Assembly: GCF_022179545.1 (NCBI RefSeq)
Contig: NZ_AP025518.1
Coordinates: forward strand, 6,076,001-6,140,000
Length of the DNA: 64,000 nucleotides
Origin: Mycolicibacterium fortuitum subsp. fortuitum
Lineage (GTDB): Bacteria > Actinomycetota > Actinomycetes > Mycobacteriales > Mycobacteriaceae
Direction of reading: 5' to 3'
A program made the translations under genes and the position numbers. This document shows, one piece after another, positions 39,429-42,087 of this stretch. The notes beneath the pieces were generated by a model, which saw nothing but the letters and a program-made list of their open reading frames with translations, was not told the DNA's origin and ran no database searches. Each line of letters opens with the position of its first letter. Within the stretch, counting starts at the first letter, position 1.

Positions 39429-40052
39429 GTGGCTGAATACACTTTGCCGGACCTGGATTACGACTACGGAGCACTGGAGCCCCACATCTCGGGGCAGATC
39501 AACGAGCTCCACCACAGCAAGCACCACGCCGCGTACGTCAAGGGCGTCAACGACGCCGTGGCCAAGCTCGATGAGGCGCGGGCCAACGGTGACCACGCGG
39601 CGATCTTCCTCAACGAGAAGAACCTGGCGTTCCATCTCGGCGGCCACGTGAACCACTCGATCTGGTGGAAGAACCTGTCCCCCAACGGTGGTGACAAGCC
39701 GACGGGCGATCTGGCCGCGGCGATCGACGATCAGTTCGGCTCGTTCGACAAGTTCCAGGCGCAGTTCACCGCCGCCGCCAACGGGCTGCAGGGCTCGGGC
39801 TGGGCCGTGCTCGGCTACGACAGCCTGGGCGATCGGCTGCTGACCTTCCAGCTCTACGACCAGCAGGCCAACGTGCCGCTCGGCATCATCCCGCTGCTCC
39901 AGGTCGACATGTGGGAGCACGCCTTCTACCTGCAGTACAAGAACGTCAAGGCCGACTACGTCAAGGCGTTCTGGAATGTCGTGAACTGGGAGGATGTGCA
40001 GAACCGCTACGCTGCGGCCACTTCCAAGACCAACGGCCTGATCTTCGGCTAG
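39429..40052 (+). CDS. sodA: Superoxide dismutase (Mn/Fe type)
   Basis: SodA dismutates superoxide and is abundantly exported in mycobacteria without a signal peptide. The 207-residue protein has the metal ligands in [23 protein letters not shown] and [14 protein letters not shown]. Its start is GTG with AGGAAGGA upstream. Rapid growers are reported to use manganese and M. tuberculosis iron; the sequence alone does not settle it. An RNA resembling a manganese riboswitch lies about 850 bases downstream. Confidence 0.97.
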
Positions 40053-40261: not shown

Positions 40262-40798
40262 ATGGATACGACGGGGTCCGGCAGGGCGATTGAGATCGCC
40301 CCCTTTCATTCCGGCGGCGCCCTCAAAGGTTTCGTGGTGCTGGGCCGGTGGCCCGATTCCACCAAAGAGTGGGCGCAGCTCCTGATGGTCACGGTCCGGG
40401 TCGCATCGCTACCCGGATTGCTCTCCACCACAACTATTTTCGGCGTTCGCGAGGAATTGCCGGAATCGCCCCGTCCCGGCACCGTCGGAATCGTCATCGC
40501 CGAAGGGCCGGTTGTCGGCGAATCCGCGGTTCCGCCCGGGTATTTCGCCGACCATCAACCGCCGGCCCTGTTGATGTTGCATCCGCCATCGGAGACGACA
40601 CCGTCACTTCCCGAGTGTGCCGGCGCGGCGTCGGGCTGCGTATTGTTGCCGGGGATCCCGCATCTCGGACTGGAACACCGAGCCGCATGGGTCGAAGCGG
40701 AATCCGACGGCACGGTGACATCGATGGTGAGCCGGGTCGGCGTCGATCCGATCAGTCACCCCGACACCGCGATTCTGGCGATGCTGTTGGCGGCGTAA
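40262..40798 (+). CDS. Conserved hypothetical protein (Rv3847-like)
   Basis: A 178-residue protein, close to the 177 of Rv3847 and in the same place after sodA. The ATG at 40262 is preceded by GGAGGCGAT. The sequence begins MDTTGSGRAIEIAPFHSGGALKGF and is strand-rich, with no signal peptide or clear catalytic motif. Several prolines lie in a mid-region loop. Function unknown. Confidence 0.8.
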   Translation: MDTTGSGRAIEIAPFHSGGALKGFVVLGRWPDSTKEWAQLLMVTVRVASLPGLLSTTTIFGVREELPESPRPGTVGIVIAEGPVVGESAVPPGYFADHQPPALLMLHPPSETTPSLPECAGAASGCVLLPGIPHLGLEHRAAWVEAESDGTVTSMVSRVGVDPISHPDTAILAMLLAA

Positions 40799-40903
40799 CC
40801 ACACCAGATTCGGGACACCCTCTCCACCAAGGAGAATCCACCTGCCGAAAATGAATAGGAAACCTGGCGGGTTGAGCGGACAACCGCTAGGGTCTCTTGA
40901 TCA

Positions 40904-41049
40904 GCGAAGGGCAGTAGCCCGCAATCGTCGCGTCGACCTGCTGGCCTCGAGCCCGGCCGACAGCCTGCGATGCGGTGGGCGACACCTTCGGCCGTAAGTG
41001 GGGTAAGCCGCGAGAGCGGCAAGTTTCAGCGGTCTGTCGAAAGGTCGCC
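40904..41049 (+). ncRNA. yybP-ykoY (manganese)-like aptamer with translational expression platform, variant loops
   Basis: The stretch GAAGGGCAGTAGCCCGC and, 60 bases on, GGGCGACACCTTCGGCC closely follow the two conserved ends of the Mn2+-sensing yybP-ykoY RNA (consensus from memory: AAAGGGGAGUAGC and GCRAGACCUUU). CGAAGG (40905-40910) pairs with CCTTCG (40985-40990) as P1. CCCGCA(A)TCG pairs imperfectly with CGATGCGGTGGG as P2. GCGTCGACC stands where GUCAAC is expected. Both conserved loops differ by one G-to-C change (GGAG to GCAG, AGACC to ACACC). Downstream, CGAAAGGTCGCC (41038-41049) can pair instead with GGCGACACCTTCG (40978-40990), masking an AAAGG ribosome site. A GCCGC-GAGA-GCGGC hairpin lies between. 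Upstream 40799-40903 holds nothing else recognised. Confidence 0.5.
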
Positions 41050-41307
41050 ATGTCCGCAGGCGCAGGCGTCAGCGTGAAAGCTGAGTCGGCGAGATCTGCT
41101 ACCCGGCGGACGCCTCAGATAGCCGTGAGGCCCCACCGCAACCATCTCTGTACCCATATTTGTGCCCTCGCTTGTGCGGCGACCGCCGAAACCTCCGTCC
41201 GTTTCCATCGGGCAACCGCCTTCCTGAATCGGACCCACAATCCACCCAGAGCTGTCTGGCTATCGCGCGCGAGGGGGTTGACGAGCATTCCACCGCCCCA
41301 CCTGTAA
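41050..41307 (+). CDS. Possible small ORF behind the aptamer, or remnant of a lost gene
   Basis: ATG at 41050 lies five bases after AAAGG, the site the RNA above could mask. The 85-residue product (MSAGAGVSVKAESARSATRR...) is basic, has four cysteines or more, no membrane helix and no similarity I know. True manganese riboswitches control exporters, so this could be the decayed start of such a gene or a leader peptide. Coding is doubtful. Confidence 0.25.
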   Translation: MSAGAGVSVKAESARSATRRTPQIAVRPHRNHLCTHICALACAATAETSVRFHRATAFLNRTHNPPRAVWLSRARGLTSIPPPHL

Positions 41308-41688
41308 CGTGTTCCACGTCGTCCGACAACGGCGCTGCGCGCAATCCGATGCGGCCCGGGTCCCGCACTCTAGCAAATTTGGGTTTCCGCTAGTCACGGC
41401 GCCGCTTCGGTTGCCGGCCAAGAAGTTGATCATGATCGAGCACCCCTGTGCTCGCAGCTCACCGCGCCCAATACAACGCAACCGTCACCTTTTGCATTGC
41501 GAGACGGCGCAATCCCGCCTACCCCTCAGGGCGAAGGTCGCGGCATCCGCAGCAGAGGGGCTCAAAACGCAAAGCCAGTTTAACTTTTGTGGCGTTTGCA
41601 CTTGGTTGTCGTCACAACACTCGCTACGATGGTCAGCAAATACGCCGCCTAATTCGTACCGCTCATGAAGCATGTGGAGGTCAAATCG
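41308..41688 (+). promoter_or_regulatory. espR upstream region with candidate promoter
   Basis: No gene is seen here. TTGGTT (41602-41607) and TACGAT (41625-41630), 17 bases apart, make a reasonable sigma-A-type promoter, with TTGTCGTCACAA inside the spacer. GGAGG lies shortly before the espR ATG. In M. tuberculosis the long region upstream of espR binds EspR itself and PhoP. I see no clear repeats to mark such sites. Confidence 0.45.
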
Positions 41689-42087
41689 ATGAGCAAGACG
41701 TTCGCCGCCCGCCTAAACCGCCTGTTCGATACGGTTTATCCGCCCGGGCGCGGACCCCACACGTCTGCCGAGGTGATCGCCGCACTGAAGTCCGAGGGCG
41801 TCACCATGTCGGCCCCGTACCTGTCCCAGCTTCGTTCGGGCAACCGGACCAACCCGTCAGCGGCAACCATGGCCGCACTTGCCAACTTCTTCCGGATCAA
41901 GCCGGCGTACTTCACCGACGACGAGTACTACGAGAAGCTCGACAAGGAACTGACCTGGCTGGCCAGCATGCGTGACGAGGGGATCCGCCGGATCGCAGCC
42001 CGCACCGTCGGCCTGTCCAACGAAGCTCAGCAGGACCTGGTCCAGAAGGTCGATGAGCTGCGTCGCCGGGAACACCTCGACGACTGA
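41689..42087 (+). CDS. espR: Nucleoid-associated regulator EspR
   Basis: EspR binds DNA as a dimer of dimers and activates the espACD locus and other surface genes. The 132-residue protein is nearly identical in the helix-turn-helix half to Rv3849: MSKTFAARLNRLFDTVYPPG and YLSQLRSGNRTNPSAATMAAL (recognition helix). The C-terminal dimerisation half has diverged more. The start at 41689 matches the M. tuberculosis start; an ATG eight codons earlier is an alternative. An EspA-class operon lies 18 kb downstream (60410), a natural target. Confidence 0.96.
   Translation: MSKTFAARLNRLFDTVYPPGRGPHTSAEVIAALKSEGVTMSAPYLSQLRSGNRTNPSAATMAALANFFRIKPAYFTDDEYYEKLDKELTWLASMRDEGIRRIAARTVGLSNEAQQDLVQKVDELRRREHLDD

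Follow-up and report, generated by a model that had tools for sequence, protein, structure and literature searches.

Between the Rv3847-like frame that ends at 40798 and the gene that we take, from gene order and sequence, to be espR (start 41689) lies an RNA element that we read, with somewhat better than even confidence, as a de-sensored riboswitch: the former leader of a GDT1 gene, kept as a ligand-independent translated leader. It was analysed within a window of 64,000 nucleotides (bases 6,076,001–6,140,000 of contig 1 in a 6.4-Mb genome of Mycobacterium, sensu lato), and the relatives of the element that stand directly before GDT1 are what we would call a variant of the manganese riboswitch. 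Judged by its sequence, the window copy is derived from a manganese riboswitch but is not itself a member, because it departs from that class in L1, in L3, in its junction and in its gene context.

Architecture of the element

As the preliminary description of this locus had it, CGAAGG (40905–40910) pairs with CCTTCG (40985–40990) to form P1, called P1.1 below; GAAGGGCAGTAGC and GCGACACCTTCGG were correctly placed, and the single G-to-C change noted in each conserved loop is found at 40912 and 40983. CGAAAGGTCGCC occupies 41038–41049, with the ribosome site AAAGG (41040–41044) five bases before the ATG at 41050, and the proposal that a downstream strand can pair with the 3′ side of P1 and mask this site was supported. 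The 85-codon frame is present, espR starts 639 bases after the ATG and, in line with the remark that no manganese exporter follows, GDT1 is absent from the window locus. The most telling change had escaped that description: L3 reads ACCTGCT in the window, as against ACATACT in most intact relatives. The features are listed below, where orphan members are copies of the element at loci that lack GDT1.

39429–40052: sodA, upstream of the element (Pfam Sod_Fe_N/C)
40864–40869, forward strand: CTGGCG, −35-like, followed after 18 bases by the −10-like hexamer (p-distance 0.16, 21 orphan members)
40888–40893, forward strand: TAGGGT, −10-like hexamer (p-distance 0.117)
40902–40994, forward strand: degenerate Mn-type aptamer with a three-way junction and no P2 (71.0 bits and a rough E-value of 3.4e-16, model R1)
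40905–40910, forward strand: P1.1 5′ strand CGAAGG (p-distance 0.070, 21 members)
40911–40917, forward strand: L1 5′ strand GCAGTAG, where intact copies read GGAGTAG (G-to-C change at 40912)
40936–40942, forward strand: L3 ACCTGCT (ACAUACU in most intact copies), with C at 40938 and A to G at 40940
40979–40984, forward strand: L1 3′ strand GCGACA, where intact copies read GCGAGA (G-to-C change at 40983)
40985–40993, forward strand: P1.1 3′ strand CCTTCGGCC, partner of 40905–40910 (ON) or of 41036–41044 (OFF)
41007–41020, forward strand: platform hairpin GCCGC-GAGA-GCGGC, between the P1.1 3′ strand and the masking strand (p-distance 0.102)
41036–41044, forward strand: masking (anti-P1) strand GTCGAAAGG, containing the ribosome site AAAGG at 41040–41044 (p-distance 0.011)
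41050–41307, forward strand: 85-codon leader ORF, in the position of the lost GDT1 start
41689–42087, forward strand: espR, the next gene on the strand, with a homologue in 146 of 148 genus genomes

Model R1 is a covariance model built from 22 intact relatives, all of which pair P1.1 (100%), and its E-values are rough, including that of 1.5e-14 with which a search of the whole genome returned the aptamer at 40902–40994 (71 bits). Only four bases join P1.2 to P3.1 in the R1 structure, with no P2, both in the window and in the intact GDT1-linked copies.

The predicted transcript start would fall at about 40899–40902, just 5′ of P1.1. The promoter-like pair CTGGCG-N18-TAGGGT is kept across the orphan clade; a −10-like TAnnGT is present in 21/21 orphans and TAnnnT in all 15 intact relatives displayed, 13 of which have a −35-like TGGCG or TAGCG at the corresponding place. 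The scan tool returned no sigma-70 consensus match at the locus, so it is conservation that carries the promoter claim. A scan for intrinsic terminators found none at the locus. Folding energy was dropped as support for the element, its z-scores being ordinary (−0.64 for 40904–41049 and −1.30 for 40904–40993), and a ZMP/ZTP riboswitch match at 40850–40925 (17.7 bits against a cut-off of 39, E 3.5) was taken as chance. The espR frame itself has a weak HTH_3 match in Pfam, slightly under the cut-off, and its product is presumably a nucleoid-associated regulator.

What the intact relatives share with yybP-ykoY riboswitches is the P1.1 switch helix, L1 (GGGGAGUAG/GCGAGACC), L3 ACAUACU with its sensing adenosine, the GDT1/UPF0016 target and a platform that masks the ribosome site. 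The pair GGGGAGUAG and GCGAGACC is what we take, partly from the RF00080 alignment, to be the L1 consensus of the class; the window differs, with GGGCAGTAG and GCGACACC. The P1.1 switch helix beside L1 is present in the window (CGAAGG/CCTTCG), but the invariable L3 adenosine of the class (A41/A48), found in 43/43 GDT1-linked copies, is replaced by C at 40938. The available part of PMC6754395 gives L3 of the Xanthomonas oryzae aptamer as A-C-A48-U49-A-C-U52, with N7 of A48 as the Mn2+-specific contact, and reports that mutation of A48 abolishes the effect of Mn on P1.1; 40938 is the equivalent of this residue. The A-to-G change at 40940 also occurs in a few intact copies. The yybP-ykoY junction is four-way and includes P2, whereas that of the window and of the mycobacterial GDT1-linked copies is three-way. 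A manganese-homeostasis gene context is found with the intact relatives, which are followed by GDT1/UPF0016 (TMEM165) transporters (PF01169), and is missing from the window locus; according to the available part of PMC7380456, yybP-ykoY controls UPF0016 in 328 of the 333 strains that were screened and have it. As in a translational riboswitch platform, the window ribosome site can pair with the P1.1 3′ strand, a likeness of pairing potential.

The earlier placement of the element near yybP-ykoY thus holds for its derivation from a riboswitch of that type and does not extend to the window copy as it stands. Of the two consequences proposed for the loop changes, weakened or lost binding is to be expected, and altered ligand choice has gained no positive evidence. 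Metal-driven opening of the ribosome site is not supported for the window copy, in which the Mn-sensing position is C, and neither is a partnership with sodA, the Mn/Fe enzyme upstream, the lost partner being GDT1.

The RF00080 covariance model (gathering cut-off 45 bits), suggested earlier as a check, gave no score for the window element: no Rfam family reached its gathering threshold in the window, and RF00080 had no match near the locus up to E 10. At E 0.001 it had 0 matches in the whole genome, with the control detected in 5 of 14 genomes. Nothing was returned on the intact copy of the window genome or on ten further loci, and the best scores on 20 relatives, four of them orphans, were 22.5 and 19.4 bits. 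This failure does not discriminate, because intact copies before GDT1 also score nil or far under the cut-off, and RF00080, which misses or underscores them, was rejected as an arbiter. The absence of helix P2 is perhaps why the GDT1-linked copies are missed; it is not the whole reason, since RNAs before other genes are missed too.

Relatives before GDT1 and the exporter beside espR

A blastn query with 40840–41060 matched (E up to 1e-3) 66 of 148 genus genomes, some of the matches being short or elsewhere. In an alignment of 30 loci, most rows hold a conserved RNA with GGGGAGUAG, GUCGACAUACUGG and GGGCGAGACCUUCG, and next in the aligned loci comes GTCGAAAGGTC, the complement of the P1.1 3′ strand. 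Alignment of homologues, another check suggested earlier, found the pairing conserved in relatives. The masking-strand element precedes the GDT1 start there as well, and a GDT1/UPF0016 frame with ELGD[KR]S stands directly after the intact RNA in 6 of the 7 loci for which frames were listed.

We compared 81 espR loci, the window and 80 named ones (the best 80 of 290 matches to the window EspR, which lean toward near relatives). A GDT1 hit is present at 43 of the 81, one of them (L045) broken. The intact RNA is found at 43/43 GDT1-bearing named loci (41.5–91.2 bits), 28–89 bases from the start of the GDT1 match, and GGGGAGTAG, GCGAGACC and the sensing A are present in every one of the 43 copies; their L3 is ACATACT (ACAUACU) in 36, ACACACT in six and ACATGCT in one. 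Among the 38 loci without GDT1, 15 (window included) carry a degenerate RNA of 13.8–60.3 bits and three a scrap of 31–32 bases (9.6–14.4 bits); in the remaining 20, no score on that strand exceeds 6.6 bits.

In a tree of four neighbouring proteins (80 of the 81 rows, L065 left out), the orphans group together in a single clade of 15 rows (SH-aLRT 95) within GDT1-bearing lineages, and the rows closest to the window genome are M. peregrinum and M. septicum; M. setense, M. senegalense and M. porcinum are also among the close matches to the window EspR. In M. frederiksbergense (L045), the outsider nearest to the clade, the RNA is intact (110.8 bits) and GDT1 is interrupted, giving partial domain hits only; M. 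wolinskyi (L095), of the same wider group, has both RNA and GDT1. This comparison shows that the espR-side exporter was lost in the common ancestor of the M. fortuitum–peregrinum clade. With 40985–41062 as the query, 18 of 396 genus genomes gave a match, among them the window genome; this count understates the clade, of which it missed one member (G135).

The window genome has GDT1 elsewhere (contig 1, 164 kb; PF01169, 148 bits), preceded by an intact switch at 164,619–164,730 whose sequence is of a second type, and such a second switch–GDT1 module is found in all clade genomes (9/9 and 12/12, hence 21/21). GGGGAGUAG, GCGAGACC and the sensing A are found in 21/21 of these second copies, whose L3 is ACAUACU in 19, ACACACU in one and ACAUGCU in one, both variants being known from GDT1 loci. 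Presumably this module took over the manganese function.

Across the genus, R1 and PF01169 each hit 113 of 148 genomes, and 107 genomes are hit by both. Of the 113 with PF01169, six lack any R1 match, and at least five others (G022, G069, G073, G078 and G130) have theirs away from GDT1. At E 10, R1 gave nothing above 13.3 bits on seven GDT1 loci (L134, L135, L141 and L164–L167). GDT1 of some mycobacteria has no switch of this kind that we could recognise; these seven loci may have another control or a diverged leader.

RNAs resembling Mn-type riboswitches were also seen before Na/Ca exchanger-like genes (L122–L125, L128, L129 and L133), before TerC (L130 and L131) and before an 854-aa frame that is probably a P-type ATPase (L126 and L127), whose first 160 residues gave no Pfam match; the Pfam check covered a single protein from each of the three kinds. 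These RNAs score 28–40 bits with R1 and were missed by RF00080 in the loci scanned, and those before the Na/Ca exchanger appear, by eye, to have a P2 stem. GDT1 is apparently broken or shortened at L136 (a 3.27-Mb genome), L137, L138, L139 and L045, with switches near-intact or decaying, and at these loci the exporter looks to have been lost repeatedly next to espR. In another clade (L092, L096, L098–L101, L104, L106–L108 and L110), the espR-side GDT1 and switch resemble the second sequence type, this GDT1 protein being about 55% identical to that of the other type; a swap or transfer between positions is possible.

Conservation of the sensor, the platform and the leader frame

The orphan set comprised first 17 and then 21 members, six further fetched loci being dropped as identical. 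Divergence is given as p-distances, which take no account of phylogeny; neutral columns from within the alignment itself serve for comparison. In the 21 members, the neutral reference is 0.328 at third codon positions of the Rv3847-like gene and 0.305 in the upstream spacer. The loops are similar to this (L1 5′ strand at 40911–40916, 0.356; L3, 0.329; L1 3′ strand, 0.292), as against 0.070 and 0.042 for the 5′ and 3′ strands of P1.1, 0.102 for the hairpin, 0.011 for GTCGAAAGG and 0.014 for CGCCATG. In the first 17 members, 19 loop columns have 0.318 against a neutral mean of 0.312, and the 42 platform columns, which were chosen by switch part after a first look at conservation, have 0.049 against 0.312, with 0 of 20,000 draws as low. 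Nine genomes provide an internal control in which the loops of the intact copy are invariant and those of the orphan vary by 0.23–0.32. The full L1/L3 core is found in 0/21 orphan members; the sensing position is A in 18 of them and C in the window and two others.

The aptamer stems are intermediate (p-distance 0.206). In alignment A4, which was fitted to the model and includes one spurious row (L040 4411–4495, 14.1 bits), 91.6% of stem cells are paired, and 97.7% of those of P1.1; part of the aptamer fold may still be used. The OFF pairs form in 99.6% of cells over 19 distinct sequences and are mostly invariant. A single compensatory pair, C-G to U-A in the platform hairpin, is shared by two sister members, and with this mostly invariant pairing the shuffle control for covariation was unremarkable (38 of 500 as high). 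Little energy separates the ON fold from the OFF fold, which is the lower of the two in 15 of 21.

From the conserved ATG, 74–87 codons are open in 21/21 orphans. The other two frames reach 70 codons in 3/17 and 6/17, and all 17 stayed open in 0 of 5000 column shufflings. Over ten sister pairs, which cover 20 of the 21 members (L032 is unpaired), 382 substitutions gave no stop codon where 6.56 were expected (P 0.0014), and five of seven indel runs are multiples of three, the remaining two lying in the most distant pair. The amino acids show no purifying selection, pN/pS being 0.89 as against 0.04 in the Rv3847-like gene (0.61 in the last 22 codons), and the middle of the frame is translated in different frames in different members. 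The peptide has no Pfam match and no homologue among about 5.8 billion proteins in a word-based search of limited sensitivity. It seems that translation is kept and the product is not. In members that stop at the common TAA, its first base is 382–384 bases from espR.

Origin and possible function of the leader

By homology, the intact copies would be translational ON switches in which Mn2+ docks L1 to L3; docking would stabilise P1.1 and so free AAAGG from the P1.1 3′ strand. Since the exporter was lost, the metal-binding loops of the orphan have drifted like neutral sites. The orphan RNA would still be transcribed, P1.1 and the masking strand would compete, and two folds of near-equal energy would set basal translation of the short frame, the peptide itself being irrelevant and ribosome loading having escaped Mn2+ control. 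Ribosomes on the leader frame may then affect Rho-type termination or readthrough toward espR, a step for which the available part of PMC12810186 offers a precedent in M. tuberculosis. The further proposal, that platform, promoter and open frame became a ligand-free attenuator upstream of espR and that selection maintains it in 21 or more genomes of a single clade, is a tentative one that we consider possible but rather doubtful. With an unconstrained peptide, what selection acts on would be indirect, and espR may not need the leader, given that the 100 bases upstream of it are themselves highly conserved (p-distance 0.039). Against the de-sensored reading itself count the sensing A kept in 18/21 members, the aptamer stems that diverge less than neutral sites (0.206) and the link of GDT1 to the switch, which is not universal in the genus.

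The precedent is the pe20 Mbox, a Mg2+ riboswitch acting through a uORF and Rho, which in the available part of PMC12810186 is likewise a mycobacterial leader with a masked ribosome site before a short frame. It differs in that its uORF2 peptide is highly conserved, whereas the orphan peptide is free, and in that its aptamer strongly resembles the ykoK Mbox, whereas the orphan sensor is degenerate (same source).

The element might instead be a pure relic, without function since GDT1 was lost, whose conserved pieces reflect slow or uneven mutation. Sensor loops that drift like neutral sites and a peptide free of constraint would be expected of it, and elsewhere the RNA has disappeared from 20 named loci that lack GDT1, while three more keep a scrap of 31–32 bases. 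We nevertheless regard it as unlikely in view of the 42 platform columns (0.049 against 0.312, with 0/20,000 draws as low), the frame open in 21/21, the promoter-like hexamers that are kept and the compensatory pair in the platform hairpin. There is a slim chance that the RNA is a riboswitch still, with an altered ligand or a lower affinity (another metal, or Mn2+ bound weakly). Stems that are partly kept (91.6% paired, divergence 0.206) and a sensing A in 18/21 speak for this, but L1, L3 and L1′ vary among members at the pace of third codon positions with no common new sequence, the window has C at the N7-donor position, and second copies in the same genomes hold L1 and L1′ unchanged.

The frame of 74–87 codons could also be a newly arisen gene for a small protein, with the switch and its ribosome site co-opted for it. 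It is open in all 21 members, its ribosome site and start codon are nearly invariant and pN/pS falls to 0.61 over the last 22 codons; yet an overall value of 0.89, against 0.04 in the Rv3847-like gene, the shift of the middle into another frame in several members and the lack of a homologue among about 5.8 billion proteins (word-based search, limited sensitivity) make this very improbable. The least probable account, to which we give little credence, is that the conserved strand is kept for a role of the DNA itself, for instance as a binding site, that has nothing to do with the RNA switch. Short blocks elsewhere upstream of espR, for example 41300–41319, are indeed equally or more invariant, but conservation here tracks the parts of the switch that flank an aptamer interior of about 75 bases: the P1.1 strands, hairpin, masking strand and ATG.

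On the de-sensored reading, sensor and platform have come apart in the orphan clade; elsewhere, loss of the exporter mostly takes the whole leader with it (nothing left in 20 of 23 loci, a scrap in three). If this is true, a riboswitch can outlive its sensor and a metal switch can turn into a ligand-free attenuator. The intact sibling copy in the same genomes is a built-in control, and the usefulness of the platform alone is directly testable. Another M. tuberculosis study has reportedly dealt with a uORF leader and Rho. The mycobacterial group of Mn-type riboswitches, before GDT1, TerC, the Na/Ca exchanger and a probable P-type ATPase, went unseen by the Rfam model in the loci scanned, and in the literature, where coverage of key surveys was incomplete, no report of a GDT1-linked riboswitch in mycobacteria was found. 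In the available part of PMC3766115, yybP-ykoY is present in more than 75% of the taxonomic groups studied, one of which is Mycobacteriaceae, so mycobacterial cases may already be in print.

Further blocks between the leader and espR are conserved. The sequence at 41300–41319, ACCTGTAACGTGTTCCACGT, is identical in 15 orphan loci of the named set, has two mismatches in L045 and, with up to four mismatches allowed, is absent from the 900 bases around espR in the other 65 of the 81 loci. Within it lie an inverted repeat, ACGTG-TTC-CACGT, and the codon at which the window leader frame stops; it is possibly an operator. Upstream of espR, 41482–41499 and 41589–41688 are nearly invariant in the clade and are probably espR control elements.
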